Shown here: one piece after another, positions 332 through 12,229 of the stretch | Layout: each line of letters begins with the position of its first letter | How positions within the stretch are numbered: the first letter of the stretch is position 1 | IMG/VR virus record: IMGVR_UViG_3300020219_000037 | Location: 1 to 35,975 of that record | DNA length: 35,975 nt | Origin: a virus | Strand: one strand, 5' to 3' | The notes under the pieces: model-generated | What the model saw: the letters and a program-made list of their open reading frames with translations, nothing else | Told to the model about the DNA's origin: nothing | Databases searched by the model: none | Made by a program: the position numbers and the translations under genes

Positions 332-508
332 TTATAGCCGATCCTCGGGGGCAATGCTGACTGACGCGGGTGGGTTCGCCGGATCGGCGCCGCCGTGGAC
401 GATGTAGGTCTGCTTGATCTCGTCGCCGTAGGTGTGGCGGAGCCGCTTGCGGGTGAGGTCGACTGCGATGTCGATGGCGTCTCTGCTGAGGAACCGTGCG
501 GTGCTCAT
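332..508 (-). CDS. 58-residue protein of unknown function, last gene of early operon
   Basis: The ATG is chosen because it overlaps the stop of the preceding gene (ATGA), the rule in this operon. The product starts MSTARFLSRDAIDIAVDLTRKR, so only its first few residues resemble the Ala-rich family. The rest is a short amphipathic basic helix followed by a Pro/Ala-rich tail. I recognise no domain. It ends in TAA rather than the TGA used by nearly all neighbours, consistent with being the end of the translational chain. An inverted repeat follows. Confidence 0.6.
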   Translation of the reverse strand: MSTARFLSRDAIDIAVDLTRKRLRHTYGDEIKQTYIVHGGADPANPPASVSIAPEDRL

Positions 509-681
509 GCTGGGTGGTCTTTGTTGATGCGGGCGAGGGTCGCGTGGTAGGTGGCGTCTGCCGCGTTGATGGCGGCGCCGTAGGCGTCGATGCCGGCGTT
601 GCGGGCTGCGGCGAAGGCGTCGTTGATGGTGGCGGCGTGGACACGCAGCGCTTCTGCGATCTGGTCGTCCCGTTCGGTCAC
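505..681 (-). CDS. Ala-rich helical repeat-family protein (58 aa), GTG start
   Basis: This is a member of the small Ala-rich family of this phage. It begins MTERDDQIAEALRVHAA, has a central Ala/Asn/Asp-rich helical stretch with regularly spaced Tyr, and ends TLARINKDHPA. The GTG start overlaps the preceding stop (GTGA), with AAGGA placed upstream inside the preceding reading frame. The final codons (AAA-GAC-CAC-CCA-GCA-TGA) carry a weak version of the Shine-Dalgarno-plus-start cassette for the last gene. A single long amphipathic helix or coiled coil is the likely fold. The function is unknown. Confidence 0.8.
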   Translation of the reverse strand: MTERDDQIAEALRVHAATINDAFAAARNAGIDAYGAAINAADATYHATLARINKDHPA

Positions 682-1307
682 TGTCGGGTTCCTTCCAACA
701 TGGTCCGCCCCGCCGTGGGGAGCGGATGGTATTTAGCAATCAGGGTGTCCGTAACTTTTCGCCCATCCGCGTGGCGGCGAACAAGCTCGGTGTGCGGGTA
801 GATCGGCTGACCTTCGGCGTTCAATCCGAGACGTTGTGAGAGCCGCCAACACCAGTCGCAGAGCGACCGTGCGTAAACAACGTTGCTCGAGCCGATGAGG
901 GCACAAAGTTTGCAGTAGTCGAGGTCGAGGGTTTTCGCTGCGGTGGGTTTCGTGGTGGTGGCAGCGTCTACGAGTTTGCGGAGACGGCCGATCGCGTCGA
1001 TAGCGGTCAGTGTTTGTTTGACGAGTTCGCGATGGTCGAGTGCCGCCCGGTCGAGGGTGGCGCTGCGACCGGCGTCGAGGGCTGCGACGACACTTTCTGC
1101 TAGCGGGTCGTGAGATCCGCCTCCGCCGGCACCGACCATTTGGGAGCGGCCAGACATCCCTTTTTTTGCCCAGTCGGAGAGGTTGGCGTTTGCTCTGGTG
1201 AACGGTGAGCGGATGCTTCTGTCTGCGGTGTTGAGGCCGATGATGTGGGCGAGGTCGCTGGCGGCGATGTTGAGGGCATGTTCGTAGTCGCGTGCGGTCG
1301 CCATCAT
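678..1307 (-). CDS. Phage protein with paired CxxC motifs, unknown function (209 aa)
   Basis: The start is one of two adjacent ATG codons after GAGGAG. The second ATG (at 1304) has the better spacing of 5 bases, while the first overlaps the upstream minigene stop. The N-terminal third is helical (ARDYEHALNIAASDLAHIIGL), followed by a Gly-rich linker (GAGGGG) near residue 70. The C-terminal half has CKLC and CDWC about 23 residues apart, a pattern that could bind one zinc ion. The last codons (EGTRQ) contain AAGGA and the GTGA overlap that starts the next gene. I recognise no named family. It follows the RecA-fold ATPase, so a role in replication is possible but unproven. Confidence 0.85.
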   Translation of the reverse strand: MMATARDYEHALNIAASDLAHIIGLNTADRSIRSPFTRANANLSDWAKKGMSGRSQMVGAGGGGSHDPLAESVVAALDAGRSATLDRAALDHRELVKQTLTAIDAIGRLRKLVDAATTTKPTAAKTLDLDYCKLCALIGSSNVVYARSLCDWCWRLSQRLGLNAEGQPIYPHTELVRRHADGRKVTDTLIAKYHPLPTAGRTMLEGTRQ

Positions 1308-1348
1308 GTCTCCTCTGTGTGTGTGAGAGTGTTGGGGTGCCGGTTCAT
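1304..1348 (-). CDS. Coupling minigene, 14 codons
   Basis: The frame encodes MNRHPNTLTHTEET. Its ATG overlaps the stop of the ATPase gene (ATGA), and its TGA overlaps the start of the next gene (ATGA), so it bridges the gap exactly. Its last codons (GAG-GAG-ACA) are the Shine-Dalgarno sequence for the following gene. The peptide may have no function of its own; the likely role is to deliver ribosomes to the next start. A chance open frame in a 37-base gap is the alternative. Confidence 0.45.
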   Translation of the reverse strand: MNRHPNTLTHTEET

Positions 1349-2493
1349 GTGGTGCCCGCCCTGATTTCGGTGAGGACCCGGTCGTACTGGTCGCGGTTGA
1401 CGTCGATGGCACGGGAGATCGTGGAGTGGTGGCCTCCGAGCAGGGTCGAGAGTTCTCGTGCTGAGAGTTCGCGTCGGGCGGCGCGTGTCTCGTCGAGGAT
1501 GCGGGCGAACGTGATGCCGCGCTGATCGGTGACGACGGTCCAGGGCCATTCGCCTCCGCGTTGGAGTGCTGCGGGCCAGGCCCGTTCGTCTCGTGCGCCC
1601 CGCCATGGTCTTAGCTGGCCGTCGTCTGCGAGATGTAACCCGAATTCGGGCCATCGGGACCAGAGCGACGCACCGTAGGGCCGTTCGGCTCGGCGGGCGC
1701 CGGGGGTCGCCGCGTACGGCTGGTGGGCTTCGAGGAGGAGAGCGAAGCCGTGGGTGACGCGCAAGCCGTCGATGATCGATGTGACTTGCCGGGCGTGTTC
1801 CTCGGTGGTGGGGTCACCACCCGCGAGTTTGTATGACGGTCCGGTGATGAGCAGGTCGGGGCGGATCGTTTCGACGAGTTCGATGAGACGAATTTCGTCT
1901 GCGGGGTCGCGAAGGTCGAGACCTTCGGACCAGATGACGGGGGTAAAAAACCCGCGTGTGAGTCGGTCGCCGGCGGAGAGTCGCATGGGGTGGAGTGCCC
2001 GGCGGACGAGACGGCGCGGGTTTTCGAGGTCGAGGTGTAGGACGCGTGCGGGGGTGATCGGGTCGAGGGTGAAGGGGTGGATGCCCGACGCGATTTGGAT
2101 GCCGATTTGGCGGAGGAGTGTGCTTTTTCCTTTGCCTTCTTGGCCGGTGAGGATGAGCCGGTCGCCTTTCTCGAGGAGGCCGGGGACGAGCCAGTCGTAG
2201 TCGGGTTCGGGTTCGTTCAGAAAGTCGTCGAGGTCTGGGTATCCGGCGGCGGCGTGTTGTTCGGCGCGCCAAGCCCCGACTTCTTCGCGGATGGTGAGGG
2301 TGGCGGTGCGATCACCGGCAGTTGTGGGGTGTCCGAGCCGGGTGAGGTCGCTGATATGGGCGGCGGCGGCTTGTTCGTCGAGTTCGGCTGCATCTTGTGT
2401 ACGTCCAGCCTCGATTTCTTCGGCGGTGGGCCAGTAGCTGTCGTCGTCGTGGATGGCGTCGAGCCATGCGGGTTCTTCTGGTTGGTCGGTCAT
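1345..2493 (-). CDS. RecA-fold AAA ATPase (RepA/DnaB-like) with C-terminal HTH
   Basis: The first 95 residues are acidic and probably flexible. The ATPase core has Walker A GQEGKGKST at 117-125, a hydrophobic strand ending in Asp near 155 (VLHLDLE), a Walker B-like PDLLITGP at 212-219, and a third strand ALLLEAHQP near 251-259. This is the layout of the AAA_25/RepA-like phage ATPases, related to hexameric replicative helicases. Near residues 345-370, ELSARELSTLLGGHHSTIS looks like a winged helix or HTH. A role in loading or unwinding at phage replication is inferred, supported by the sliding clamp encoded just upstream. Its stop forms ATGA with the following minigene. Confidence 0.93.
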   Translation of the reverse strand: MTDQPEEPAWLDAIHDDDSYWPTAEEIEAGRTQDAAELDEQAAAAHISDLTRLGHPTTAGDRTATLTIREEVGAWRAEQHAAAGYPDLDDFLNEPEPDYDWLVPGLLEKGDRLILTGQEGKGKSTLLRQIGIQIASGIHPFTLDPITPARVLHLDLENPRRLVRRALHPMRLSAGDRLTRGFFTPVIWSEGLDLRDPADEIRLIELVETIRPDLLITGPSYKLAGGDPTTEEHARQVTSIIDGLRVTHGFALLLEAHQPYAATPGARRAERPYGASLWSRWPEFGLHLADDGQLRPWRGARDERAWPAALQRGGEWPWTVVTDQRGITFARILDETRAARRELSARELSTLLGGHHSTISRAIDVNRDQYDRVLTEIRAGTT

Positions 2494-2531
2494 GCGGCGT
2501 CAGGGGTTTTCGGCGTGTGGTACTCGATCAT
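2490..2531 (-). CDS. Coupling minigene, 13 codons
   Basis: The frame encodes MIEYHTPKTPDAA. It starts shortly after the sliding-clamp stop, and its TGA overlaps the ATG of the ATPase gene. No good ribosome site precedes it. Its first 13 bases (ATGATCGAGTACC) are identical to the start of the first plus-strand gene near 14461, which is curious for so short a frame. It may be a translational bridge or the leftover 5' end of a former gene. Confidence 0.33.
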   Translation of the reverse strand: MIEYHTPKTPDAA

Positions 2532-2538
2532 GCACACG

Positions 2539-3216
2539 TCAGTGCACTACCAGCATCGGCATTACGAGGTGGGTCATGCCCGGTTGGCGGACCATCATCG
2601 GGGCCGACACCCCCCCGCATTCGAGGTGGATTGTTTCGGTCGTACACGCGCGGATCAGGTCTCGGAGGTAGTAGGCGTTGAAATAGGTTGTCTGGGTGGG
2701 GCCGACCGTTTCGAGGGTGATGCCGCGGTGGTCCCACGGGTCTGGGTGCTCCATCCTGTCGTGGAGGTCGCTGGTCGACAGTTCTCCCGTCGCGGTGATC
2801 CGAGCTGTGACGGTCTGGCCGCGCTTCTGTGCGGGCAACGCGTCGAAGAACGTGGTGAGGGTGTCCCTGTCTGCGACGTACGAGTATTCCCACCGGGCGT
2901 CGCGCAGCAGCTTCTCCCACCTGGGGTATTGCCATTCGGGGGGGCAGCGGGTGAGGTAATTTTCGCTGAGTGTCCATGCCCCTGTCCGGGGGAGCGACTT
3001 CTCGAGTTGTGTTGCGCCGAGAAGTACGTGCGGGATCGGGTCTCCGTCGAAGTATGCGATGGCGAGCCTGTAGCTGTCTGTGGTGACGGCGGTGTGTCCG
3101 CCGATACTCGCGGCGCTGAGGACCGGACGGGTCGGAGCGTTGCTGGCGGCGTAGAGGCAGCGGCGGAGTAGGGCGACCGCCGGCGCGTCGAAGATGTGCG
3201 GGGCACGTTCGTTCAT
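2539..3216 (-). CDS. Short DNA sliding clamp (DnaN/beta-like), 225 aa
   Basis: The C-terminal third resembles the last domain of bacterial beta clamps: FNAYYLRDLIRACT, then TIHLECGG, then MVRQPGMTHLVMPM. These match the family's FNxxYLxDxL strand and helix and its final LLMPV strand. The N-terminal part has the family-like TDSYRLAI followed by LGATQLEKSL. At 225 residues it is well below the usual 365 or so, suggesting two domains instead of three, as in other reduced phage clamps. It would tether the host polymerase to phage DNA. The ATG overlaps the stop of an Ala-rich family gene, whose AAGGAG serves as its ribosome site. Alternative: a divergent clamp-like protein without polymerase binding. 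Confidence 0.8.
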   Translation of the reverse strand: MNERAPHIFDAPAVALLRRCLYAASNAPTRPVLSAASIGGHTAVTTDSYRLAIAYFDGDPIPHVLLGATQLEKSLPRTGAWTLSENYLTRCPPEWQYPRWEKLLRDARWEYSYVADRDTLTTFFDALPAQKRGQTVTARITATGELSTSDLHDRMEHPDPWDHRGITLETVGPTQTTYFNAYYLRDLIRACTTETIHLECGGVSAPMMVRQPGMTHLVMPMLVVH

Positions 3217-3380
3217 GCGGGGTACTCCTTGTCGATGCGGTCGAGGGTCGCGACGTAGGTGGCCCATACGGCGTCGCGAGCGGCGTCGTAGGAGACGTTG
3301 ACTGCGGTGTGGAGGTCGGCGCCCGCGGCGGTGTAGACCCGCCGTGCTTCTGCGATCTGTTCGTCACGTTCGGTGCTCAT
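3213..3380 (-). CDS. Ala-rich helical repeat-family protein (55 aa)
   Basis: The shortest clear full-length family member, with consensus ends: MSTERDEQIAEARRVYTAA at the start and ATLDRIDKEYPA at the end. The middle (about residues 20-40) has Asp/His/Val substitutions in the Ala background. The start is preceded by AAGGAG from a 12-codon relic of another copy. Its own last codons provide AAGGAG-N8-ATG for the sliding clamp gene. The function is unknown; a helical protein is predicted from composition. Confidence 0.85.
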   Translation of the reverse strand: MSTERDEQIAEARRVYTAAGADLHTAVNVSYDAARDAVWATYVATLDRIDKEYPA

Positions 3381-3415
3381 TCGGGGTTCTCCTTGTCGAT
3401 GCGGTCGATGGTCAT
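3377..3415 (-). pseudogene. Relic of an Ala-rich family gene, 12-codon bridge
   Basis: The frame encodes MTIDRIDKENPE, which is the C-terminal signature of the family (TLDRIDKEYPE) directly behind a start codon. It looks like a copy that lost its body and kept only the stop-start cassette. The ATG overlaps the stop of the upstream gene, and the TGA overlaps the start of the next one. AAGGAG is retained at the normal distance. This supports the view that the cassette, rather than the protein body, is what has been kept here. Confidence 0.55.
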
Positions 3416-3648
3416 GACTCACCATCTTTCGGGTTGGGAACCGCAGCCAGGACGGCACGGCGAGCAATGCCGCGGCGGTCCGAATTTGAGCCTGCGGTCG
3501 GACTAGCAATCAACCTCAGCGCGTCGAGGGCTTCGTCTGCTCGGCGGGCCTGTACCACGATCCCGTCCACCGCCCGATAGTGCGCCGCACGGAGAGCCGT
3601 GTCGTGGTCAACCAGCGGCGTCCACGCGTCGGGTGTCAAGTCACTCAT
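3412..3648 (-). CDS. 78-residue protein, unknown function
   Basis: It starts MSDLTPDAWTPLVDHDTAL and continues with a helical segment rich in Ala and Arg (ALRAAHYRAVDGIVVQARRADEAL is split over two helical turns). The tail is basic. It lacks the family N- and C-terminal signatures. ATGA overlaps occur at both ends. I recognise no domain. It lies between an 88-residue protein with a family-like N-terminus and the relic cassette, so it may have entered the array by insertion between cassettes. Confidence 0.75.
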   Translation of the reverse strand: MSDLTPDAWTPLVDHDTALRAAHYRAVDGIVVQARRADEALDALRLIASPTAGSNSDRRGIARRAVLAAVPNPKDGES

Positions 3649-3911
3649 CGCTCGACCTCTCCGAACACGCGTGCCGCAGCGACCAGCAACGTCGTGTCGT
3701 ACATGGTCAGCATGTTCACCACATACTCAGCGGCCTTACGGGGATCTTCGACGGTCCGACCCGAGTCCGCCGCCGAAGTCACCGACCGTTGTACCGCCTC
3801 GGTCAAGGCTTGGCGTACCTCTTGTCGCCTACTGAGAGCCATGAGCGCGAGTTCTTTATCCGTCAACGGTTTGTCACGGGTGGCAATCTGCTGGTCACGT
3901 TCGGGGCTCAT
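3645..3911 (-). CDS. 88-residue protein with family-like N-terminus only
   Basis: The first ten residues (MSPERDQQIA) match the Ala-rich family start, after which the sequence changes completely (DKPLTDKELALMALSRRQEV, then a helical C-terminus ending VFGEVER). There is no EYPA-type ending. The start is preceded by GGACAACCCCGC, a variant of the usual cassette supplied by the HTH protein gene. The composition suggests an all-helical protein. It looks like a chimera in which the 5' end of a family gene has been joined to an unrelated body. The function is unknown. Confidence 0.78.
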   Translation of the reverse strand: MSPERDQQIATRDKPLTDKELALMALSRRQEVRQALTEAVQRSVTSAADSGRTVEDPRKAAEYVVNMLTMYDTTLLVAAARVFGEVER

Positions 3912-4633
3912 GCGGGGTTGTCCTTTCCGGGGCGTCCGGGTGTGCGGATCGCGACACCCGTCTCGATAAGACGATGCCGTACGGTCTGAGGGGAACACCC
4001 GTAGTTCGCACCTAGATCCTCGATCGACCAGCCGATCTCGTAACGCAACACCAGTTCGCGCACAGGTAAGGCAACGCGCTTGGGGCGGATCGCGACCCCG
4101 TGGGTGCGGAGATGGCGGGTGATCGTTGTCGTCGCGACGTGGTGGCGGGCGGCGAGGACCGCGATGGTGTCCCCGGCGAGGTAGCGGGCGACGATTTCGT
4201 CGTCGGGGAGGCGTTTGGTTCGGTCGCCTCGACGTCGGAGTGTGATGCCTGCGTCGACGAGACGGCGGCGGATCGTGCTAGGTCTGACCCCGAGGCGGAC
4301 GCCGATCGAGGTGGAACCTTCGCCGGCTTGGTATGCGGCGATGATCTCACCGTCGGGGAGTACCTTCTTGCGCGGTTCGCGCGGGGGTCGTTGCTTCGCG
4401 ACCTTCCGGGGGCGTAGGGGCCGCGCCGGTCGCGGTTCGCGACGGGCGCGTTCCGGCTTGGCGTGGAGCGTCACTGTTTGGGTGGCACGTCGGGCGAGCG
4501 GGGCGGGGCGGGCAAGTAGTTCTGTTTCGCGGTCTTGTCGGGTGGCACGTTCGGGGTGATCGCACCAGCATGTGCATGACGGCCGGGCGCAGTCTGTGTG
4601 GTCGTAGCTCGAGCATGCGAGTGACACGCTCAT
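3908..4633 (-). CDS. Triple helix-turn-helix DNA-binding protein (241 aa)
   Basis: The N-terminus has a cysteine cluster (CSSYDHTDC, then CTCWCDH) that could bind zinc. A long basic Arg/Pro linker follows (residues about 45-95). Three similar units of about 45 residues come next, each starting LPDxEI or LPVREL, then A-Y/R-Y-x-A-G, an HTH (for example IGVRLGVRPSTIRRRL) and a conserved DAGITLR / THGVAIR / ETGVAIR ending. These resemble the HTH of resolvases and transposases, here as three tandem DNA readers without a catalytic domain. It is likely a regulator or DNA-organising protein. The final residues GKDNPA encode a variant of the stop-start cassette used by the next gene. Confidence 0.9.
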   Translation of the reverse strand: MSVSLACSSYDHTDCARPSCTCWCDHPERATRQDRETELLARPAPLARRATQTVTLHAKPERARREPRPARPLRPRKVAKQRPPREPRKKVLPDGEIIAAYQAGEGSTSIGVRLGVRPSTIRRRLVDAGITLRRRGDRTKRLPDDEIVARYLAGDTIAVLAARHHVATTTITRHLRTHGVAIRPKRVALPVRELVLRYEIGWSIEDLGANYGCSPQTVRHRLIETGVAIRTPGRPGKDNPA

Positions 4634-4827
4634 CGGGGCTGGGCACTGTCGGTGCGGTCGACGTCGAGCGCCGCGACGTAGGTGTCCCATGCGGCGGTGC
4701 TTGCGGCGCGGAGTGCGGTGCGGAGCGCCTCGTGGGAGACCATGACGTCCCTGTCTGTTGTCCCATGTCGCGCTGAGCCTGTGTCCAGCCATGCGGCCAT
4801 CTTCGCCTCGCTGAGAATCTCGCTCAT
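4630..4827 (-). CDS. Degenerate Ala-rich family protein (65 aa)
   Basis: It begins MSEILSEAKMAAWLDTG, unlike the family, but has ALRAASTAAWDTYVAALD near its end. The last eight of these (WDTYVAAL) are also present in the plus-strand family gene near 14700. The usual DRIDKEYPA ending has become VDRTDSAQPR, and no good Shine-Dalgarno precedes the overlapping start of the HTH gene. It appears to be an eroding or recombined family member. The start is set by the ATGA overlap with the preceding KEYPA cassette. Confidence 0.75.
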   Translation of the reverse strand: MSEILSEAKMAAWLDTGSARHGTTDRDVMVSHEALRTALRAASTAAWDTYVAALDVDRTDSAQPR

Positions 4828-5132
4828 GCTGGGTACTCCTTGTTGATGCGGTCGAGGGCCTTCTTGTAGGTGGCATAGGCGTCAGCGTCGGCGTCGTATG
4901 CGGCGGCGACGCCAGCGGCGTAGACTCGCTTTGCTTCTGCCATCTGCTTGTCACGTTCTATGCCAGAATTTGGAACAAATTCCTTGTCAGAATTTGGAAC
5001 AAATTCCTTGTTCCTGTGGGGGTACTCCTTGTCGATGCGGGCGAGGGCTGCGTCGTAGGTGGCGTCGGCGGTGGCGCGTGTCGTCTGCTTGTCACCTTCT
5101 ATGCCAGAATTTGGAACAAATTCCTTGCTCAT
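4824..5132 (-). CDS. Fused double Ala-rich protein with KEFVPNS inserts (102 aa)
   Basis: Two family units lie in one frame. The first is MSKEFVPNSGIEGDKQ..., ending ALARIDKEYP. The second starts after HRN with KEFVPNSDKEFVPNSGIERDK, then AEAKRVYAA, and ends ALDRINKEYPA. The junction has CCCCC (plus-strand GGGGG at 5018-5022) where separate genes have CCCC, so the stop is passed; the internal ATG has also been lost. The KEFVPNS peptide is encoded by a 17-base AT-rich inverted repeat that occurs three times here and nowhere else I noticed. The family N-terminus MSTERDEQIAEA is replaced by this insert. The function is unknown. Confidence 0.82.
   Translation of the reverse strand: MSKEFVPNSGIEGDKQTTRATADATYDAALARIDKEYPHRNKEFVPNSDKEFVPNSGIERDKQMAEAKRVYAAGVAAAYDADADAYATYKKALDRINKEYPA
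4960..5127. repeat. Three copies of a 17-base inverted repeat, GAATTTGGAACAAATTC
   Basis: The element is 7 bp of perfect complementarity (GAATTTG / CAAATTC) around GAA. Copies lie at 4966-4982, 4990-5006 and 5107-5123. The outer copies share a longer flank (ttctatgccag on one side, cttg on the other). The sequence is strikingly AT-rich in a GC-rich genome and lies inside a reading frame without breaking it. It may be a tiny dispersed repeat, an operator or an RNA hairpin. Confidence 0.8.
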
Positions 5133-6040
5133 GCGGGGTACTCCATGTTGAGGGTGGCGAGGGTCGCGCCGATCCATTTGGCGACCGGTACGGTCACTGC
5201 GTTGCCGAGCATCCGGTACCGTGCCGAGTCGGAAAGCTGGTCACCCTGGGCGTCACAGCGGGTGTGATCGTCGGGGAATCCCTGGAGCCGTTCGCATTCG
5301 AGTGGGGTGAGTCGCCGGACTCCACTCGAAGTCTGTACGACGATCAGATGTCCGGCCTGCGCGTGGTTGTCGTCCACGCCGCCCTTACCTAGATGTGCTG
5401 TGAGCGTGCCAACTGTCGTAACGCCTGCTCGAGTTGCACTGGTAGACGCCGGCCCCGTCGTTGCGCCCGGTTGAGGATGCCGTTGGCAGCTCGCGGCGAC
5501 AGAAAATAGCGGGTCTGCGGGTTCGGCTCGAGGATCGAACCAAGCTGCGATGAACATGCGCCGCCGACGTTGGGGCACCCCGAAATGTTGCGAGTCCAAC
5601 ATTGCCCACTCGATTCCCACCGCCCCGACGCCGGCCAACGCGTCGAGGCACCGGCCCATAGCAGCGCCTCGGTCGGCGGTGAGGAGCCCAGGGACGTTTT
5701 CAGCGACAACCCAAGTTGGGTGACGTCCTCCGCTGGCATCGCGCATCTCCCCGATAATTCTGGTGGCTTCGAAAAACAGGTTGGATCGGGTGCCGTCGAG
5801 CCCGGCGCGTTCCCCTGCGACGGAGAGGTCTTGGCAGGGGAACCCGAAGGTTACGACGTCGACAGGTTCGAGGTTGTGTGCGTCGCGTACGTCTGTGTGG
5901 CGGGGGACGTCGGGCCAATGGTGGGCGAGTACCCGCCGGCAGTTGTTGTCGGATTCGACTTGCCATGCGCATTCCCACCCGGACTGTTCGAAGCCGAGGT
6001 CGAATCCTCCGATGCCGGCGAACAGCGACCCGATCTTCAT
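5129..6040 (-). CDS. dcm: C5 cytosine DNA methyltransferase
   Basis: The motifs of the family are in order: motif I LFAGIGGFDLG (residues 6-16), motif IV with catalytic Cys69 in GFPCQDLS, motif VI ENV (114-116), motif VIII QRRRR (157-161), motif IX RLTPLECERLQGFP (243-256) and motif X RYRMLGNAV (274-282). The target-recognition region between about 165 and 240 is short. It would methylate cytosine C5 in an unknown sequence, presumably to protect phage DNA from host restriction; no cognate nuclease is adjacent. The protein ends ATLNMEYPA, the ending of the unrelated Ala-rich family, and these codons supply GGAG and the overlapping ATG for the next gene. The start overlaps a family-gene stop. 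Confidence 0.97.
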   Translation of the reverse strand: MKIGSLFAGIGGFDLGFEQSGWECAWQVESDNNCRRVLAHHWPDVPRHTDVRDAHNLEPVDVVTFGFPCQDLSVAGERAGLDGTRSNLFFEATRIIGEMRDASGGRHPTWVVAENVPGLLTADRGAAMGRCLDALAGVGAVGIEWAMLDSQHFGVPQRRRRMFIAAWFDPRAEPADPLFSVAASCQRHPQPGATTGPASTSATRAGVTTVGTLTAHLGKGGVDDNHAQAGHLIVVQTSSGVRRLTPLECERLQGFPDDHTRCDAQGDQLSDSARYRMLGNAVTVPVAKWIGATLATLNMEYPA

Positions 6041-6237
6041 GCGGGGTGGTCCCTGTCGATGCGGTCGAGGGTCGCGCGGTAGGTCGCGGCGGCGGCGTTG
6101 CGGGCGGCGGTGAAGGCGGCTCCGCGGACGGCATCGCTCCTGGCGTCGCCGGCGGTGTAGGCGTCGCAGGCGAAGCTGTAGGCGACATCGTGTACCCGCC
6201 GTGCTTCTTCGATCTGCTCGGCCCGTTCGGTGCTCAT
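6037..6237 (-). CDS. Ala-rich helical repeat-family protein (66 aa), duplicate of the one near 13700
   Basis: It begins MSTERAEQIEEARRVHDVAY and ends ATLDRIDRDHPA. It is nearly identical over most of its length to the family protein at 13564-13761 (shared CDAYTAGDARSDAVRGAA-type core with Cys/Val and Ser/Gly changes). The DNA identity over 147 bp is broken by only four mismatches. In place of GAG-TAC its end has GAC-CAC, giving AGGGAC as ribosome site for the methyltransferase gene. The function is unknown. Confidence 0.87.
   Translation of the reverse strand: MSTERAEQIEEARRVHDVAYSFACDAYTAGDARSDAVRGAAFTAARNAAAATYRATLDRIDRDHPA
6055..6201. repeat. 147-bp duplication shared with 13582-13728
   Basis: Read side by side, 6055-6201 and 13582-13728 align without gaps and with four mismatches. 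The repeat covers the body of two Ala-rich family genes about 7.5 kb apart in the same operon and orientation. It is the most recent duplication visible in the array, and as a direct repeat it could recombine to delete the genes between. Confidence 0.85.
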
Positions 6238-6626
6238 GCGGGGTACTCCTGGTTGATGCGGTCGAGGGTCGCGACGTAGGCGGCGTCGGCCGCTGCGAGT
6301 GCGGCGTTGTAGGTGGCGCCGCGTCGGGCTTCGACTGCGTCGTAGGTGGCGTCGGCTGCTGCTTCGTCCGCGATGTAGGTGGCGACGTATCGGGCTTCGT
6401 CCGCGACGTAGGTGGCGCCGGCCGCGTCGTATGCGGCGAGGCGCACCCGCCGGGCCGCGGCGATCTGCTCGTCCCGGCCGGCGGTCATGCGGGGGTACTC
6501 CCGGTCGATGCGGGCAAGGGCTGCGTCGTAGGTGGCGTCGGCGTCGGCGGCGGCGTAGATGGCGGCGTCCCATGCGGCGTCGCACACCCGTCGCGCCTCT
6601 GCGACATGTTCTGCGCGTTCGCTCAT
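6234..6626 (-). CDS. Fused double Ala-rich family protein (130 aa)
   Basis: Residues 1-46 form one unit (MSERAEHVAEARRVCDAA ... ALARIDREYPR). Met47 begins a second unit (MTAGRDEQIAAARRVRLAA ... ATLDRINQEYPA) containing several ATYVADEAR / ATYIADEA repeats. The linker codons are GAG-TAC-CCC-CGC-ATG: one C more than in the separate genes, so the stop that would overlap the ATG is out of frame and the units are joined. The internal ATG still has GGGAG upstream, so the second unit could also be made alone. The direct repeats ATYVADEA suggest internal slippage growth. The function is unknown. Confidence 0.87.
   Translation of the reverse strand: MSERAEHVAEARRVCDAAWDAAIYAAADADATYDAALARIDREYPRMTAGRDEQIAAARRVRLAAYDAAGATYVADEARYVATYIADEAAADATYDAVEARRGATYNAALAAADAAYVATLDRINQEYPA
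6235..6271 (-). repeat. Type copy of the stop-start cassette (SD, overlapping TGA/ATG) repeated through the operon
   Basis: On the minus strand the cassette reads as codons for RIDKEYPA followed by TGA, with AAGGAG, 8 bases, then ATG overlapping the TGA. Clear copies set the starts at 508, 3216, 3380, 3911, 4827, 5132, 6040, 6237, 6626, 6820, 13122, 13385, 13567 and 13761, and at 14742 on the plus strand. In-frame (fused) relics lie near 5020 and 6490. The flanks usually also contain the family start, CGTGACGAGCAGATCGCAGA-like. This copy has CAGGAG (RINQEYPA). Confidence 0.85.
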
Positions 6627-6820
6627 GCTGGGTACTCCTTGTCGATGGGTTCGACGATTGCGAGGTAGGCGGCGTCGGCTGCGGTGAGGGCGGCGTAGGC
6701 GGCGTCGGCGTCGGCGTCGCTGTGGGCGGCGTTGGCAACTGCGAGGGCTTCGTAGGCGGCGTCGATGGCGGCGTGGTGGACCCGCCCTGCTTCTTCGATC
6801 TGCTGGGCACGGTCCGTCAT
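6623..6820 (-). CDS. Ala-rich helical repeat-family protein (65 aa)
   Basis: It begins MTDRAQQIEEAGRVHHAA and ends AIVEPIDKEYPA. The interior is almost wholly Ala with Asp, Thr and Tyr (AAYEALAVANAAHSDADADAA), typical of a long helix. The C-terminal signature is partly degraded (VEPIDKEYPA for TLDRIDKEYPA), yet the AAGGAG-N8-ATG part is intact, so the nucleotide signal is better kept than the protein sequence. ATGA overlaps occur at both ends. Confidence 0.85.
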   Translation of the reverse strand: MTDRAQQIEEAGRVHHAAIDAAYEALAVANAAHSDADADAAYAALTAADAAYLAIVEPIDKEYPA

Positions 6821-7044
6821 GCTGGGTACTCCCGGTAGATGCGGGCAAGGGTCGCGACGTAGGTCGCGTCGGCAATGCTGAGGACGGCGTGGGCTGCGCT
6901 GCGGGCGTCGATGTTGGCGGTTCTGGCGGCGGCGTGCATGGCGTCGCAGGTGGCGTCGGCTGCGTCGTAAGCGGCGTAGGCGACGTCGACGGCGGCGGCG
7001 TGGACTCGCTTTGCTTCTGCAATCTGCTTCTCACGTTTGCTCAT
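6817..7044 (-). CDS. Ala-rich helical repeat-family protein (75 aa)
   Basis: The first gene of the second family block. It begins MSKREKQIAEAKRVHAAA and ends ATYVATLARIYREYPA, with CGG-GAG as the embedded ribosome site. Its start overlaps the stop of an unrelated 78-residue gene, so it is entered without the usual upstream cassette. One Cys, two Met and many Ala are present. The function is unknown. Confidence 0.85.
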   Translation of the reverse strand: MSKREKQIAEAKRVHAAAVDVAYAAYDAADATCDAMHAAARTANIDARSAAHAVLSIADATYVATLARIYREYPA

Positions 7045-7277
7045 GTGGAGCTCACAGTGACGCGCGAAATGTAGACGTGGCGGATGCGTGTCCCATCCCA
7101 TATCCCTGCGGTGTGGGGGATGCCGTCGCACAGGTCTACGGATTGGAGCGTCCCAGTGAAGGATGGGTCTTGCTCGTTGGGGAGTGTGGGTCGGGGGGCA
7201 CGTGCGACGCGGACGGGGGTGCCTCTGGGCACGATCGTGTGGCCAAGGTCGAGGAGCACAGCGGCAGGGACAGTCAT
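7041..7277 (-). CDS. 78-residue beta-rich protein, unknown function
   Basis: It starts MTVPAAVLLDLGHTIVPRG and continues with alternating hydrophobic strands and Pro/Gly turns; near the end is GTRIRHVYISRVTVSS. This is a small beta protein, unlike the neighbouring helical family. Its start overlaps the stop of the Mom-like gene, whose first residues (MTVPAQLSAV) resemble its own (MTVPAAVLL), another sign of shared gene starts in this operon. No domain is recognised; a partner or accessory of the DNA modification enzyme is a guess from position only. Confidence 0.75.
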   Translation of the reverse strand: MTVPAAVLLDLGHTIVPRGTPVRVARAPRPTLPNEQDPSFTGTLQSVDLCDGIPHTAGIWDGTRIRHVYISRVTVSST

Positions 7278-7924
7278 GCGACGGCCCGATGCACGAAACG
7301 AAGTTTGGGGAAGGACGGAGCCAGCGAGAACCCACGTGCCAGCATTTCGGGGACGCTCAGATTGTGTGGCCCGCGTTTACGTCCACGCTGCTCCCCGTTC
7401 GGCCCGATCCACACATCTCCAGCGGGGGTGGAGCGATCGAACGTCCACCCGTCAGCGCGGTAGATCGCACCAGTGTGTCCGAGTCGCGTATCGGCATAAC
7501 TCACCAGGACGGGCCACCGTGCCCGGTCTATCTGCCGGCGCGAATGGGCGAGCAAAAACGAAGCGGCGTTCTTCGGTGCGTTGGGATCGACACACAGCCG
7601 AGAACAGGCGAGGACTCCACCCCACGAATCGCCAGCGACAGACTTGCTCGCTCCGGGTGACATGAGTCCCCACACGGAGGTCCCCCACCGCATGAGCGGG
7701 TTATCTCGACGTTCTAGGCCGAACCTATAGACGGAGGTGTTGCTCGCCGAACGCGAGTAGTGCCATGCGACTGTCAACGCGACGGCTTCTGCGTGGGGGA
7801 TCGGCACTACCCACCACTCCGACGATTGGAGCCGTGGGGTCGGATTTGCACCGCCATCTCCCGCGAGGTTTCGCGGGCGAGCTACTTGCTCCACCACGGC
7901 AGAAAGTTGGGCGGGGACAGTCAT
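7274..7924 (-). CDS. mom: Mom-like DNA modification protein (GNAT-fold), anti-restriction
   Basis: The protein has the features of the phage Mu Mom family (adenine methylcarbamoylation, acetyltransferase fold). An N-terminal WHYSRS motif follows AVALTVA. Then comes RWGTSVWGLMSPGA, a strand giving LACSRLCVDPNAPKNAASFLL with the family's R-L-x-V-P/D-x-x-APKNxAS signature, then VLVSYADTRLGHTGAIYRAD, very like the family's SYAD-x-GHxGxIYxA motif, and WTFDRS. Family members modify adenines in phage DNA and block many restriction enzymes. A C5 methyltransferase sits about 1.2 kb downstream in the same operon. The length (216) fits the family. Alternative: another GNAT enzyme acting on a different substrate. 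Confidence 0.82.
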   Translation of the reverse strand: MTVPAQLSAVVEQVARPRNLAGDGGANPTPRLQSSEWWVVPIPHAEAVALTVAWHYSRSASNTSVYRFGLERRDNPLMRWGTSVWGLMSPGASKSVAGDSWGGVLACSRLCVDPNAPKNAASFLLAHSRRQIDRARWPVLVSYADTRLGHTGAIYRADGWTFDRSTPAGDVWIGPNGEQRGRKRGPHNLSVPEMLARGFSLAPSFPKLRFVHRAVA

Positions 7925-8193
7925 GCGACGTCGTCCTCGTCAGGGTCGACCGTGAACCCGCCCCACTCGATATCAGGCCACCCGTCATCATCCCCATACC
8001 GCGCCCAATGAGCCTCGCGGGCAGCCCGCGTACGATCCACAAGACGAGGGCCGACAACAACACCGGAGTACGGGTCGACCGGCACGAGCGCGTCGGGGAC
8101 ACGCAACGGCCCGGACTGCGCGCCCATCGCGGCCCGCAAACAATCGCCGACCGTCGGGGGACGCCGAAAAAACCGGCGAAAACGACGGCCCAT
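7921..8193 (-). CDS. 90-residue protein, basic N-terminus and acidic C-terminus
   Basis: It starts MGRRFRRFFRRPPTVGDCL and ends FTVDPDEDDVA, so the charge runs from strongly basic to strongly acidic. A GTG one codon upstream is an alternative start. The centre (LVPVDPYSGVVVGPRLVDRT, then EAHWARYGDDDGWPDI) has no recognised motif. It lies immediately after the Rpf-like gene, with one or two bases between stop and start, and overlaps the Mom-like gene by ATGA. The function is unknown. Confidence 0.75.
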   Translation of the reverse strand: MGRRFRRFFRRPPTVGDCLRAAMGAQSGPLRVPDALVPVDPYSGVVVGPRLVDRTRAAREAHWARYGDDDGWPDIEWGGFTVDPDEDDVA

Positions 8194-8196
8194 CAC

Positions 8197-8805
8197 TCAC
8201 CCACCCCACGGTGCGAGATTCGTCCCGCCGCTGGAAAGACGTCGCGCACATTCGTCTTGCTCCGCGGGGATTGTCCACGTGAGGTCAGAACATCCGCCGC
8301 CGTTCCAGTGGAACCCGGCGATCTGGTAGAGGCCGTAGCAGCCAGTCCCCGAGCAGAACCCTGGCGGCGAGACGGCGTCATAGTTGCATCCGGATTCGCG
8401 TGCGATGATGTACCCGGGGATGACGTGCCCCTCACACTCCGTACGGCTAGTTCCTGGGCGAGCCACTGCGACGATTGGAGTGCGGAGAGTTGCTGCCAGG
8501 CGCTCCGCTTCCTGAGCTCGAGCATGTGTGTCCTCTGCGTCTCGGATGCCTGCGTACCAGGCGGCTTGCTGGTCGATGATCGGTTGGGGGTGGTCACCTC
8601 CCACTGCTGAGAGGGGGAGGGGTGCGGTTTGGGCGGCGACAGGCCGCCCCGGCCGGTCGGGTTTCACATGTTCGGGGTCGGTGAGGATTTGTTGTCCGGC
8701 GATGGCGCCGATCACGGTGATGTAGATCGCGCAGATCACGGCGATGGTCGCGGCGGCGATTGCGAGGATCGTGCCGATCGCGGTGAGGATCGGGTGGCGG
8801 GTCAT
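8197..8805 (-). CDS. Membrane-anchored Rpf/transglycosylase-like cell wall enzyme
   Basis: Near the N-terminus is one long hydrophobic helix (AIGTILAIAAATIAVICAIY plus more), followed by a linker and a helical stalk (DAEDTHARAQEAERLAATL). The C-terminal domain is lysozyme-like: IPGYIIARESGCNYDAVS with the probable catalytic Glu in ARESG, then GCYGLYQIAGFHW, then a segment with two cysteines (CSDLTW...DECARRL). The pattern E-S-G/N-x-x-A, then G-xY-Q matches lytic transglycosylases and resuscitation-promoting factors. It is encoded in the early operon, far from the lysis cassette. It could remodel the host wall, assist entry or exclude other phages. The cysteines suggest a disulphide outside the membrane. 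Confidence 0.8.
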   Translation of the reverse strand: MTRHPILTAIGTILAIAAATIAVICAIYITVIGAIAGQQILTDPEHVKPDRPGRPVAAQTAPLPLSAVGGDHPQPIIDQQAAWYAGIRDAEDTHARAQEAERLAATLRTPIVAVARPGTSRTECEGHVIPGYIIARESGCNYDAVSPPGFCSGTGCYGLYQIAGFHWNGGGCSDLTWTIPAEQDECARRLSSGGTNLAPWGG

Positions 8806-8978
8806 CGGGTGCAGTCCAGGCGCACGGATGCGACGATGGCGGTCGTTCCTCCGTGCCAGCCGCATGCACATCGGGCGAGCGGCCATGCTTCGTAGTCGTT
8901 GGTGATGAGGAGGATCGCGTGGCAGTTGGGGCAGTGGCCGACGATGACCCGATGCGCGTCGACGGTGTGAGCGGTCAC
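8802..8978 (-). CDS. Small zinc-ribbon protein (58 aa), GTG start
   Basis: The GTG overlaps the preceding stop (GTGA). The product starts MTAHTVDAHRVIVGHCPNCHAI and has CPNC and CACGW about 18 residues apart, a typical four-Cys zinc ribbon. The segment YEAWPLARCACGW resembles zinc ribbons that read nucleic acid or stabilise small proteins. The stop overlaps the ATG of the Rpf-like gene. The function is unknown. Confidence 0.78.
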   Translation of the reverse strand: MTAHTVDAHRVIVGHCPNCHAILLITNDYEAWPLARCACGWHGGTTAIVASVRLDCTR

Positions 8979-9733
8979 AGTTCTGTCCCGGCGTCGATGA
9001 GCTGGTCGAGGAGCGCGAAGGCTGAGGTTTGGAGCCTGTGTGCGACCGGTTGGAGCGCAGCCGCCGACGCCGAGCACGCCGCCGAGCGCGCAGCCGAGTA
9101 CGCAGCCGAGAGCGCAGCCGAGCGCGCAGCCGAGCGCGCAGCCGAGTCCGCAGCCGAGTCCGCAGCCGAGTCCGCAGCCGAGCACGCCGCCGAGCGCGCA
9201 GCCGAGCACGCCGCCGAGCGCGCAGCCGAGAGCGCAGCCGAGCGCGCAGCCGAGCGCGCAGCCGAGTCCGCAGCCGAGTCCGCAGCCGAGCGCGCAGCCG
9301 AGACCGCCGCCGAGACGATCGGGGTTACCCTCTCGCTGATCTCACCCGCAGACATGCGGGACGTGTCACCCAACCCTTCGAGCGCAGCCGCATCCTCGAC
9401 CATGCCGGCCAGTCGCAACCATGCGGGCGTGAACGTTCGGATCAGCCAGTCGGAGCAGAGGCGCCCCCGACGAGTTTCAACCGCGACGCTAGAACGTGTC
9501 CCGACGAGACGCGAGATATACGGGACCAACCGTTGCCGGTCTGCGTCGTTGAGAGAATCATTCCATGCGGTCGTGAACTCTGTGATGACCGGGCAGGCAC
9601 ACTCTGGATGGTCCGACCACGGTTCGCCCGCCACATAGGCGACGGCCTCCATGACGCACATCGCATCGTGATCCTGGTGGGAACCGCTAGCGAGATGGTC
9701 AATCTCGGCGAGTCGCACATAGTTGACGGTCAT
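8975..9733 (-). CDS. Phage protein with SHQDHDAMCVMEAVAY motif and SAAx repeat tail
   Basis: Residues 1-115 form a conserved actinophage domain of unknown function, with GSHQDHDAMCVMEAVAYVAG, then EPWSDHPECACPVI and TAWNDSL...RLVPYISRLVGT. After about residue 140 the protein becomes roughly 20 tetrapeptides of SAAx (x = R, D, L, C, Y or V), encoded by near-perfect 12-bp repeats, ending in a short helical cap. The repeat should form a long helix with the variable residue moving round its surface. The stop overlaps a GTG. I recall this N-terminal domain from many actinophages, always without known activity. Confidence 0.9.
   Translation of the reverse strand: MTVNYVRLAEIDHLASGSHQDHDAMCVMEAVAYVAGEPWSDHPECACPVITEFTTAWNDSLNDADRQRLVPYISRLVGTRSSVAVETRRGRLCSDWLIRTFTPAWLRLAGMVEDAAALEGLGDTSRMSAGEISERVTPIVSAAVSAARSAADSAADSAARSAARSAALSAARSAACSAARSAACSAADSAADSAADSAARSAARSAALSAAYSAARSAACSASAAALQPVAHRLQTSAFALLDQLIDAGTEL
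9061..9318. repeat. 12-bp tandem repeat array (about 20 units)
   Basis: The units read GAGCGCGCAGCC on the plus strand, with changes mostly in the codon for the variable fourth residue of the SAAx peptide. The array is in frame and pure enough to expand and contract by slippage. Larger segments are themselves repeated (the blocks around 9115-9160 and 9235-9280 are nearly the same). Confidence 0.9.
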
Positions 9734-9987
9734 GGGGTGGTCCTTCCGATAGCAGCCTCGATCTCGTCGAGGACCTGATCAATGTCGTCAAGCGGCACCC
9801 GTCCGTGCGCGGCGAGCACCACACGCAACCGATTACGCAACGCACCCCGCGCGTCGAACCACGCACCCCGCGCGTCGAACCACGCACTCCAACCGGTACC
9901 GTGCCCACCGGCCCGCACACAACCCCCATCCCACGGGGATGGCTCAGTCCCGCAACCACCGCAATCGGGACACGCCAGGCCACTCAT
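9730..9987 (-). CDS. 85-residue protein with CxxCxxC and a duplicated heptapeptide
   Basis: It begins MSGLACPDCGGCGTEPSP, a zinc-binding or redox-like cysteine cluster. Residues about 35-48 are two exact copies of AWFDARG, encoded by a 21-bp tandem repeat. The C-terminal half (RLRVVLAAHGRVPLDDIDQVLDEIEAAIG) looks like a helical hairpin. It is coupled by ATGA at both ends. The function is unknown. Confidence 0.8.
   Translation of the reverse strand: MSGLACPDCGGCGTEPSPWDGGCVRAGGHGTGWSAWFDARGAWFDARGALRNRLRVVLAAHGRVPLDDIDQVLDEIEAAIGRTTP
9839..9880. repeat. 21-bp direct tandem repeat, two copies
   Basis: The unit cgcaccccgcgcgtcgaacc plus one base occurs twice in a row and partly a third time. 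It lies in frame inside the CxxCxxC protein gene and duplicates seven residues. A recent slippage event is likely. Confidence 0.8.
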
Positions 9988-10142
9988 CCGACCGGGTCTC
10001 CCAAGTCGACAAGTTCACGCCAGGGTCCACCCCGCATCGTGTGGTCATGTCTGTTGCGACGTTCGGCACGACGCAGACGTGCGCCAACCCATAGGAGACG
10101 AGCGGCAGGAGCCCACAGGTGTGCTACTCGAGGGTCGATCAT
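9984..10142 (-). CDS. 52-residue Arg-rich protein, unknown function
   Basis: The start is the ATG that overlaps the stop of the 33-residue membrane peptide gene; a longer frame exists but would run through that gene. The product MIDPRVAHLWAPAARLLWVG then ARLRRAERRNRHDH is a hydrophobic helix followed by a basic stretch, possibly membrane- or nucleic-acid-associated. The stop overlaps the next ATG. The function is unknown. Confidence 0.6.
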   Translation of the reverse strand: MIDPRVAHLWAPAARLLWVGARLRRAERRNRHDHTMRGGPWRELVDLGDPVG

Positions 10143-10240
10143 CGGGGGCCATCTCCGAGCCACCCGGCGATCGTGCCGAGCGTCGCACACGCCGCGAAGA
10201 TGAGGCCGACACGAACGGCGACGGGACGCCAGTAGCTCAC
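10139..10240 (-). CDS. 33-residue single-pass membrane peptide, GTG start
   Basis: GTG overlaps the resolvase stop (GTGA), and the TGA overlaps the next ATG. The sequence MSYWRPVAVRVGLIFAACAT followed by LGTIAGWLGDGPR is one hydrophobic helix with a basic N-terminal side, so the N-terminus is probably inside the cell. It fills the gap between two genes exactly. A small membrane peptide fits, but the function is unknown. Confidence 0.6.
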   Translation of the reverse strand: MSYWRPVAVRVGLIFAACATLGTIAGWLGDGPR

Positions 10241-10581
10241 GCCAACGTCTCCCGTTCCACCAGGAGCCGGACGAGCTGCTCTAGTTCCATGACGACATAC
10301 GCACGGCGGACGGGTTGCCCTCGCCGTTTCGCTATCACGACGCCGTACTGGGCGCGGGCGTTAGCCTGTTCGCGCCGTAGTTCGTCGACCCACCCAGCCC
10401 AGTCGTGAGTTTTCTGGTTTTTCAGCTCGAAACACCAGGCGGGGAGACCATCGAGGTCTCCGACGTCATCGGGACGGCCGGCACCGTAGGCACGCTCAAC
10501 GTTGGGGAGCCCGTGCCCGCGCATGTATTCGGCGACGTCACGTTCGAACTGGGAGCCTTTGCGGGCGGCGGCACTCGTCAT
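10237..10581 (-). CDS. Holliday junction resolvase-like PD-(D/E)xK nuclease
   Basis: The protein (114 aa) begins TSAAARKGSQFERDVAEYMR, where the Glu in FERDV corresponds to the first acidic residue of the fold. GRPDDVGDLDG gives the central Asp, and WCFELKNQK the E-x-K, followed by a helix with Gln and a VVIAKRR strand. This is the order seen in Hjc-like and phage PD-(D/E)xK resolvases. It would cut branched recombination or replication intermediates before packaging, matching the nearby Cas4/RecB-like nuclease. ATGA and GTGA overlaps couple it to both neighbours. Confidence 0.87.
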   Translation of the reverse strand: MTSAAARKGSQFERDVAEYMRGHGLPNVERAYGAGRPDDVGDLDGLPAWCFELKNQKTHDWAGWVDELRREQANARAQYGVVIAKRRGQPVRRAYVVMELEQLVRLLVERETLA

Positions 10582-10718
10582 CGCTGCACCTCAACCCACC
10601 GGCCAGCCTGACAGTCACCGACATGCCCGGCGGCAAGTGTGCACGTCTGGGAGTACCGATACCCGTGGTCATCTGCTTGGCGTAGCACTTGCCCGCATGC
10701 GACGGGGAACAGAGTCAC
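10578..10718 (-). CDS. 46-residue Cys-containing protein, GTG start
   Basis: GTG overlaps the stop of the RDF-like gene, and TGA overlaps the resolvase ATG. The sequence starts MTLFPVACGQVLRQADDHGY and later has CTLAAGHVGDCQAGRWVEV, giving three Cys and two His that could hold a metal. It ends in QR. The exact double overlap supports it as a gene. The function is unknown. Confidence 0.65.
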   Translation of the reverse strand: MTLFPVACGQVLRQADDHGYRYSQTCTLAAGHVGDCQAGRWVEVQR

Positions 10719-12229
10719 GGCGTCTCAACCCATTCGCGTACGGCCGCAGAGATACGCCCGTCAGTCCATTCTGCGAACGCGGCGGGTGCTTCGACTCCGA
10801 GTTGTTCGGCGGTCGCACGTGCGTATCGCAACGCGCCAACCTGTGTCTTCCCGTGTTCCTTGATAAACGTCTTCCACCTGTCTGGCTGCCAGTACGCCTC
10901 GTCGTCGGATGTCGCCCCTGCCGTCGGGGTGTCGACCTCGTCGAGGCGCATCGCACCGTCGATGCCGTACACCAGCCGCAACGTCCCGGCGGCGAGCCGG
11001 TGGAGCACGACATGGACGCGGGCGAAGTCCTCGTCGTTGAGGTTCTTCCCCGAATGGGCGCGTCCCTCCGTCACCAAGCCGATGAACGCGTGGCGGTGCT
11101 CGTCGGTTGTGATCCCAACGTCTCGGGCTCGCATCGCAACATGCTTCGCCCGTGCAATCGCGGCGGGTGAAGCACCCGGAGGGGAGACCGCGTCGGAGTC
11201 TGCGCCGTTCGGCACGACACCATCGACGTCCACGATTGCGCCAGCATCGTGCTCCCCTCCGGGTACACCAGGCGGAGTGCCAGTGGGCGGACCACCCGGC
11301 ACTGGCACTCCACCAGCCGACGGAGCAGCCGTGCTGCCATCAGCGATTTGCGCGGCCGAACGTGGCCGCCGTCCCGTCGCAGGGATTGGCTGTGCCGACC
11401 CCTTACGTTGGGCACGTACTTCCTGGCCGACCCCCGCCACCTGCTCGGCGACTGTCCCCACCGGGCCGGCGGGCAACTCGCCCACCGGAGTCAACCCGCG
11501 CGCCACGACGACGGCTTCATCAGGTGAGACTGGCGCCGCCCCCAACGTTGGGCGACCAACCGCGCTGAGCGTGTCCAGCGCCTCATCGACCGTCATATCG
11601 ATGTCGAGAACAGGCACCACGAAGTTATGCGTTTCGAGCGTCACTTGGTCGATCGACGTCCGCTGGTCGAGACGCAACCGGGCGCGCACCGGCCGGTTCG
11701 TTGCGGTCAACAGCTCGAGCATTTCCACTCCGCCGATCAGCTCCCCCGCAGCGATTTCTCCTCGCGTGTCGAGCCGCCACATGCCGATCCCTGGGACGCG
11801 CCGCAACATCACGGAGAGACGTGTGGTGCGCTTACAAACGTCCTTGCCTGTGGCAACACAAACACAGGGGCGATCTCCACGAAGTTCGGTTCGTCCGTCG
11901 CACCGGAGCAGGCAGACAACAGGGTTCGGTTTATGGCCCTTCGGGTGGCGTTGCCCCCAATGCTCGAAGTACTGCGAAAGCACCTGGCCGGGGACAACAG
12001 CAATGTCGAGCGCGTCGACCTCTGTGGTCAACTGGTACTGGTCTTCCCATGCGGTCACCTTGCCGCCGTACACCGTGGCGGCAGCTTCGAGGCGGGTCCG
12101 GTCACTGGAGGTGAGCCGCCACGTTGAGAGCGTCGCCGGATACTGCTTGCCCGACTGTGCTGTGCGCTTCTCACCCATGCGGATGCGGCCGACTTCGACG
12201 AGGCGGCGTTGCTGATCAATGATCGGCAT
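10715..12229 (-). CDS. phiC31 gp3-like recombination directionality factor family protein
   Basis: The N-terminal half fits the actinophage Gp3-like family: PIIDQQRRLVEVGRIRMGEK, then WRLTSSDRTRLEAAATVYGG and WEDQYQLTTEVDALDIAVVPG, and a cysteine-bearing segment (VVCLLRCDGRTEL...CVCVATGKDVCKRTT) typical of this group. The second half has a long Pro/Gly-rich linker (residues about 290-350) and a helical C-terminus. In phiC31 the homologue switches serine integrase from integration to excision. Here no integrase is found, so it may serve a foreign or host-encoded integrase or have a different role; in many lytic actinophages similar proteins are simply part of the replication operon. TGATG couples it to the nuclease gene upstream. 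Confidence 0.8.
   Translation of the reverse strand: MPIIDQQRRLVEVGRIRMGEKRTAQSGKQYPATLSTWRLTSSDRTRLEAAATVYGGKVTAWEDQYQLTTEVDALDIAVVPGQVLSQYFEHWGQRHPKGHKPNPVVCLLRCDGRTELRGDRPCVCVATGKDVCKRTTRLSVMLRRVPGIGMWRLDTRGEIAAGELIGGVEMLELLTATNRPVRARLRLDQRTSIDQVTLETHNFVVPVLDIDMTVDEALDTLSAVGRPTLGAAPVSPDEAVVVARGLTPVGELPAGPVGTVAEQVAGVGQEVRAQRKGSAQPIPATGRRPRSAAQIADGSTAAPSAGGVPVPGGPPTGTPPGVPGGEHDAGAIVDVDGVVPNGADSDAVSPPGASPAAIARAKHVAMRARDVGITTDEHRHAFIGLVTEGRAHSGKNLNDEDFARVHVVLHRLAAGTLRLVYGIDGAMRLDEVDTPTAGATSDDEAYWQPDRWKTFIKEHGKTQVGALRYARATAEQLGVEAPAAFAEWTDGRISAAVREWVETP

Follow-up and report, generated by a model that had tools for sequence, protein, structure and literature searches.

The left arm of an uncultured, actinobacterium-type phage is organized as a chain of coding cassettes bounded by ATGA, and with a probability of about 0.62 we take this chain to be translated largely by termination–reinitiation, with minigenes bridging the gaps between the larger genes. 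The sequence is the complete virus record IMGVR_UViG_3300020219_000037 of IMG/VR with 35,975 bases, all of which lie inside the window, as we call the whole stretch of 35,975 nucleotides that was analysed. It encodes an HK97-type tailed phage with terminase, portal, protease, capsid and tail tube, the terminase being about 40% identical to those of Streptomyces, Curtobacterium and Arthrobacter phages. The genes are arranged in two minus-strand blocks, a structural one at about 35.6–15.9 kb and the left arm at 14.3–0.3 kb, which are separated by a short plus-strand block at 14.4–15.7 kb. Genes for a RepA/DnaB-like helicase, a sliding-clamp-like protein, a C5-cytosine methyltransferase and a PD-(D/E)XK nuclease are located in the left arm. 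Among 50,697 phage records no near match to the window was found, and neither megablast and tblastn searches in phages nor protein and pattern scans of viral contigs or a pattern scan of genome contigs yielded a close relative for a frame-conservation test, the best matches being 35–43% identical for the helicase and 49% for the terminase. L089, which gave the single match to 18427–18858, was rejected as not syntenic, and the Gordonia phages VanLee and Schmidt have helicase neighbourhoods different from that of the window. Some genes contain internal repeats, with about 20 units of 12 nt (GCGCAGCCGAGT-type) at 9017–9364 within the minus-strand gene 8975–9733 and three tandem 69-nt repeats with an identity of up to 96% at 16906–17112 within gene 16787–17146.

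For the analysis of the junctions we used a curated set of 69 genes, none of them shorter than 30 codons. Over the whole window 34 of 66 same-strand junctions show a 4-nt overlap (-4) and 10 of 66 a 1-nt overlap (-1), and a large part of the former belongs to the left arm:

332–14322, minus strand: left-arm operon of 35 genes with 34 junctions, 29 of them with a 4-nt ATGA/GTGA overlap

The remaining left-arm junctions are one at -1, one at +3 and three gaps longer than 3 nt, which measure 31, 45 and 40 nt and each hold an exactly fitting frame of 12–14 codons. In the left arm up to 12 junctions at -4 follow each other without interruption, or 15 if the minigenes are counted, compared with 2–4 in four named control actinophages. 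Of the frames in the structural block 4 of 30 are cassettes of the type [AG]TGA...TGA, compared with 33 of 38 in the left arm, and thus cassettes can join or leave the left arm with the coupling intact. The first-pass annotation had described the chain as otherwise gapless; this is correct for the left arm, whereas in the structural block gaps of 28, 73 and 39 nt are unbridged.

All short frames cited there could be recovered, and all lie on the minus strand:

1304–1348, minus strand: m1, 14 codons, MNRHPNTLTHTEET and stop
2490–2531, minus strand: m2, 13 codons, MIEYHTPKTPDAA and stop
3377–3415, minus strand: m3, 12 codons, MTIDRIDKENPE and stop, with ATGA at each end; a lone tail of the repeat family described below
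18374–18430, minus strand: m4, 18 codons, MIYKFSGAEDEARIKVAG and stop, with an ATGA start and a TGATG stop
19956–20114, minus strand: trio of small frames at 20094–20114 (6 codons), 20014–20097 (27 codons) and 19956–20024 (22 codons)

Further bridging frames, which the first-pass annotation did not contain, are the following:

14742–14786, plus strand: minigene, MTEREKQTAAAIPA and stop, a family head collapsed to 14 codons, with ATGA on the paralogue 14461–14745
14783–14869, plus strand: 28-codon GTG frame with a GTGA start and a TAATG stop
15326–15370, plus strand: minigene, VNHMSPCIDIPWKV and stop, with a GTGA start and its stop 1 nt before the next ATG
24297–24437, minus strand: GTG frame of 46 codons, a bridge over the gap to the tape-measure-like gene 22626–24293

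Most minigenes had been said to start on the previous stop, and this is the case for m1, m3 and m4, which show the -4 overlap at their start (for m1 an ATGA on the helicase stop), but not for m2, which begins 7 nt past the stop of its true upstream gene, the clamp-like gene 2539–3216 (PHROG 947, E 4e-13). An ATGA start of 2490–2531 on a previous stop was discarded, that stop belonging to a shadow frame at 2528–3367. The claim that the stops of all minigenes coincide with the next start or immediately precede it was correct for m1, m3 and m4, which end at -4 or -1 (m1 with a TGATG on the start at 1304), and for m2, which ends at -4 with an ATGA on the helicase start at 2493. Within the trio the first two frames are linked by ATGA and the third ends with ATGA on the holin-like gene 19708–19959; frames two and three overlap by 11 nt, so that the trio was rejected as a strict -4/-1 chain and its gap of 151 nt was scored as unbridged. 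On the plus strand, 14783–14869 completes a strict two-step bridge from 14742–14786 to gene 14869–15192, a multi-step arrangement found in 0 of 300 shuffles, and 15326–15370 bridges a gap of 42 nt. The frame 24297–24437 could be a second tail-assembly-chaperone frame; together with 24434–24796 it lies before the tape-measure-like gene and the pair resembles the two frames of tail assembly chaperones.

In order to compare bridging with chance, all gaps of 25–80 nt in the window were counted, beyond those cited before, and a frame was accepted as a bridge if its start lies at -4, -1 or 0 to +10 relative to the upstream stop and the end of its stop at -4, -1 or 0 to +3 relative to the next start. 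By this definition five of eight gaps are bridged, three of them with strict -4/-1 at both ends, versus 1.8 expected from dinucleotide shuffles in which the flanking genes were kept (joint p = 0.003), so that the comparison with shuffled sequence, proposed as a check in the first-pass annotation, came out in favour of an excess. In control phage contigs processed with the same caller, 7 of 161 gaps are bridged against 9.4 expected by shuffling, showing that phages have no general bridging excess, and in four high-GC actinophages the count is 0 of 35. The difference between the window and the 161 control gaps is significant with p = 4e-5 for the curated genes and 0.002 for automatic calls (Fisher's test). 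Bridging therefore exceeds both chance and the controls, in a sample of only eight gaps, and it is not obligatory, as three gaps of 28–73 nt are unbridged. An operon rich in GC and ATGA might simply have many short gaps that are open and in frame, and indeed shuffles with kept flanks bridge the individual bridged gaps in 12–22% of cases and the 31-nt gap every time; against this stand the joint shuffle result, the controls without excess from which the window clearly differs, and the gene-like in-frame codon usage of the minigenes. Chance is thus disfavoured and in our opinion very improbable as an explanation.

The codon usage was scored with log-odds learned from the long genes of the phage itself, with open, dinucleotide-shuffled versions of the minigenes as null. 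Pooled, the four single minigenes cited before reach 0.27 per codon versus a shuffle mean of -0.17 (p < 0.0003), and the set outside the repeat family (1304, 2490, 18374 and 15326) gives p < 0.0003 as well. Scored one by one, m4 (p < 0.0005), m3 (p = 0.0015) and m2 (p = 0.02) stand above m1 (p = 0.07), and the scores of the trio are weak (p 0.85, 0.11 and 0.32). Such gene-like usage would fit present translation and, equally well, recent descent from genes. No unusual RNA fold was detected in the minigene regions, and structured leaders were rejected; likewise, these regions and the cited gaps contain no promoter-like match.

SD energies were computed for all gene starts. The helicase start at 2493 has no SD (-0.6 kcal/mol) and lies 45 nt from the clamp stop, yet is located exactly with its ATGA on the stop of m2. 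SD-poor starts as a rule coincide with an upstream stop or are a few nt away from one, the only exceptions being 14322, the first gene of the arm, and the helicase start itself. This makes m2 the minigene that most needs a function. In reporters with native gene pairs a distance of about 20–38 nt nearly abolishes reinitiation, -4/-1 overlaps support coupling, and the last 15 nt of the upstream frame are sufficient for reinitiation (PMC10666635). As reinitiation nearly disappears at about 20–38 nt, a gap of 31–45 nt would break the chain unless it is bridged. The genes starting at 1304, 3380 and 18374 have good SDs which, as the first-pass annotation had pointed out for several minigenes, are located inside the minigenes (GAGGAG in m1), and these genes might initiate without them; a downstream start that is weak without its minigene is found for the helicase and not for these three genes. 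An SD in the last codons is by itself weak evidence for bridging, since an SD is to be expected in any gap that precedes a gene.

According to the reinitiation model, ribosomes finishing one gene would reinitiate at the overlapping start of the next one, and the loss, shortening or insertion of a gene would leave its neighbours without overlap. The flow would then be maintained only by remnants whose start still lies close to one stop and whose end coincides with the following start, and a minigene would prevent ribosomes that have terminated from ending up too far from the next gene to reinitiate; the peptide it encodes is probably unimportant. From the excess of bridged gaps, the codon usage and the helicase start on the m2 stop we infer that the minigenes are translated, that ribosomes reinitiate behind them and that bridging is under selection, and for the left arm this is the best reading. 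The first-pass annotation had extended it to a ribosome travelling the whole message, which is not supported in view of the at least three strand blocks, with a plus-strand block between minus-strand ones, of the unbridged gaps and of a strong hairpin:

29755–29784, minus strand: 13-bp GC-rich hairpin, -39.8 kcal/mol, z -5.9

This hairpin separates the capsid gene from an HNH-like gene, lying in the 73-nt gap that is left unbridged there, and argues against a single uninterrupted message. The start at 29724 has AGGAGGTG 6 nt upstream, and the HNH-like gene (29002–29724) carries three 81-nt Cys-rich repeats at 29389–29640.

A closer look into the origin of the minigenes leads to an orphan family of about 14 small genes in the left arm and the beginning of the plus-strand block, with the pattern M(S/T)xERxEQIAEA...ATLDRIDKEYPA and stop. 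The protein is alanine-rich and predicted to form a two-helix hairpin (pLDDT 91), and no match was obtained in any library or collection searched, apart from a weak match between the fused copy 6234–6626 and a PHROG (E 0.0095). Members of the family and related features are:

505–681, minus strand: repeat-family member, VTERDDQIAEALRVH...RINKDHPA and stop
3213–3380, minus strand: repeat-family member directly after m3 and before the clamp gene
6037–7044, minus strand: four tandem repeat-family genes (6817–7044, 6623–6820, 6234–6626 and 6037–6237)
13119–13958, minus strand: four tandem repeat-family genes joined by ATGA
14461–14745, plus strand: repeat-family member, ...DRIDKEYPE and stop
3217–3252, minus strand: consensus-like example of the 36-nt tail cassette, CGCGACCCTCGACCGCATCGACAAGGAGTACCCCGC, followed by ATGA
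5133–5168, minus strand: tail cassette with which the gene for the C5-cytosine methyltransferase (5129–6040) ends at its 3' side, 41.5 bits
3645–3911, minus strand: non-family gene with a family head (MSPERDQQIA), head PWM 27.0 versus a null maximum of 10.5

The 36-nt tail occurs in 16 copies in the window with 37–58 bits each, whereas the null maximum over 72,000 shuffled positions is 1.2. It encodes an SD and the ATGA within the codons of ...RIDKEYPA and stop, and 14 of the 16 copies end exactly at an ATGA junction, the frame of the other two continuing into a fused gene. The genes that it precedes include those for the clamp, the methyltransferase and the nuclease, and the methyltransferase gene, which itself ends in a tail, is no paralogue of the family (Pfam PF00145, E 4e-56); gene 3645–3911 is also unrelated to the family apart from its head. 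The eighth codon of the tail is variable in its first two bases (K, L, R, Q, M), but 13 of 14 copies have G as the third base, completing GGAG, which is the reverse of normal codon conservation. Since GGAG is kept despite the changing amino acid, it seems to be the SD and not the peptide that is under selection at this position. The genes 13564–13761 and 6037–6237 share 93% DNA identity despite a separation of 7 kb, which suggests recent duplication or gene conversion, and the chimeric family gene 4824–5132 contains three copies of a repeat of about 25 nt (GCCAGAATTTGGAACAAATTCCTTG) at 4938–5127 that is AT-rich, unlike its surroundings.

Two minigenes at least can be assigned to this family by sequence. 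m3 corresponds to the tail alone in its ancestral frame (PWM 39.3 versus a null maximum of 1.2; best blastn E to other tails 4e-10), and removal of its 35 nt restores a perfect ATGA junction between the neighbours. 14742–14786 corresponds to a family head closed after 14 codons (PWM 21.8 versus a null maximum of 10.5; blastn match with the head at 13761, E 9e-5), and both are thus collapsed family copies. For m1, m2 and m4 a repeat origin was rejected, as they have no significant self-match in the window, and together with 15326–15370 they have no detectable parent within it; a 13-nt match between the starts of m2 and gene 14461 is suggestive only. The minigenes could accordingly be mere debris of duplicated or decayed genes, functionless and with a fit inherited from ATGA-bounded ancestors, the downstream genes using their own SD. 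The two collapsed copies and the good SDs at 1304, 3380 and 18374 agree with this, and gene fragments would be expected to show gene-like codon usage, but the helicase start has no SD, four minigenes (m1, m2, m4 and 15326) are without a parent in the window, and neutral decay should have broken most frames, yet five of eight gaps fit. We therefore regard debris as rather unlikely.

The fused gene 6234–6626 bears on another possibility. It consists of two copies joined in frame, the internal tail TACCCCCGCATGA having one C more than the usual TACCCCGCATGA and having lost the stop, so that at 6490 a one-base difference turns coupled paralogues into a fusion protein. Some minigenes might similarly be ends of neighbouring genes split off by real or assembly frameshifts, for example 18374–18430 as the lost C-terminus of 18427–18858, or might reflect programmed frameshifting at 24437. 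Besides the difference at 6490, the origin of the sequence from a metagenomic assembly and the match of 18427–18858 to PHROG 644, which ends at position 135 of 174, speak for this, but the exact ATGA/TGATG fit at both ends at several sites is unexpected from random indels and m3 and 14742–14786 are left unexplained, which makes such splits improbable.

On the favoured reading of bridging by reinitiation, the repeat family has spread along the left arm by duplication, and any copy, either whole or collapsed to its tail or head as in m3 and 14742, would still hand the ribosome on. As a more tentative extension, which is possible but which we do not consider probable, the 36-nt tail may be a self-propagating coupling cassette that is selected for ribosome hand-over as much as for protein, has been grafted onto unrelated genes and survives alone as a 12-codon gene that only bridges.

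Coupling through ATGA overlaps is common, and to our knowledge evidence for operons kept gapless by bridges of 12–18 codons is scarce. Several known systems are nevertheless similar in parts. Mycobacterial interspersed repetitive units (MIRUs) insert at gene starts with a -4 spacing (Supply et al. 1997, as summarized in Brown and Wade 2025, PMC12548453); like them, m3 is a short repeated DNA with a small ORF at a gene start, has -4 spacing and keeps the flanking genes coupled, and of the minigenes m3 alone is a dispersed repeat whose small ORF overlaps both the stop and the start of its neighbours, with an intact ATGA empty site as in the MIRU layout. The likeness is one of layout; the phage repeat is the 3' tail of full-length small-protein genes, most copies being whole genes and only m3 free-standing. 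Another similar system is that of uORFs and other short ORFs, which through translational coupling 'deliver' ribosomes to the next gene (Shell et al. 2015, as cited in PMC12548453; Huber et al. 2019 and 2023, PMC6728339, PMC10666635). As in uORFs, the short frame ends at -4/-1 on a gene start and the proposed role is ribosome delivery and not the peptide, but the phage minigenes are intra-operonic, lie between coupled genes, bridge both ends and occur several times per genome. The start-associated sequences (SAS/ESAS) of cluster K mycobacteriophages are start-linked SD repeats, the SAS being the 13-bp GGGATAGGAGCCC (Pope et al. 2011, PMC3203893). They share with the tail at least a dozen SD-containing repeats directly upstream of starts, almost all of them in one orientation, in the non-structural half and before unrelated genes, whereas the phage tail is a 36-nt coding element with a fixed frame and another sequence; it was rejected as a cluster K SAS, as it reads ...GACAAGGAGTACCCCGC ATGA and lacks the consensus GGGATAGGAGCCC 3–7 nt before the start. 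In axe-txe a minigene immediately before a gene, as here, raises translation of that gene in cis and the distance from minigene to start matters (PMC8708949), but this minigene has two codons, belongs to a toxin–antitoxin leader and is 15 nt from the next start. A degenerate tail pattern gave two matches in 84,980 genomes; the bacteria concerned are unrelated, and this number is close to the chance estimate.

Ribosome-delivering ORFs and MIRUs were thus already known, and new here are bridging minigenes together with a coding-tail coupling cassette in a phage. Frames of 12–18 codons are missed by annotation, and the helicase without SD on m2 offers a simple test case for bridging minigenes. 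The repeat tail suggests how gene turnover could proceed in a coupled phage operon without breaking the chain, and if the idea of a self-propagating cassette is true, it would let genes come and go while the chain remains intact.
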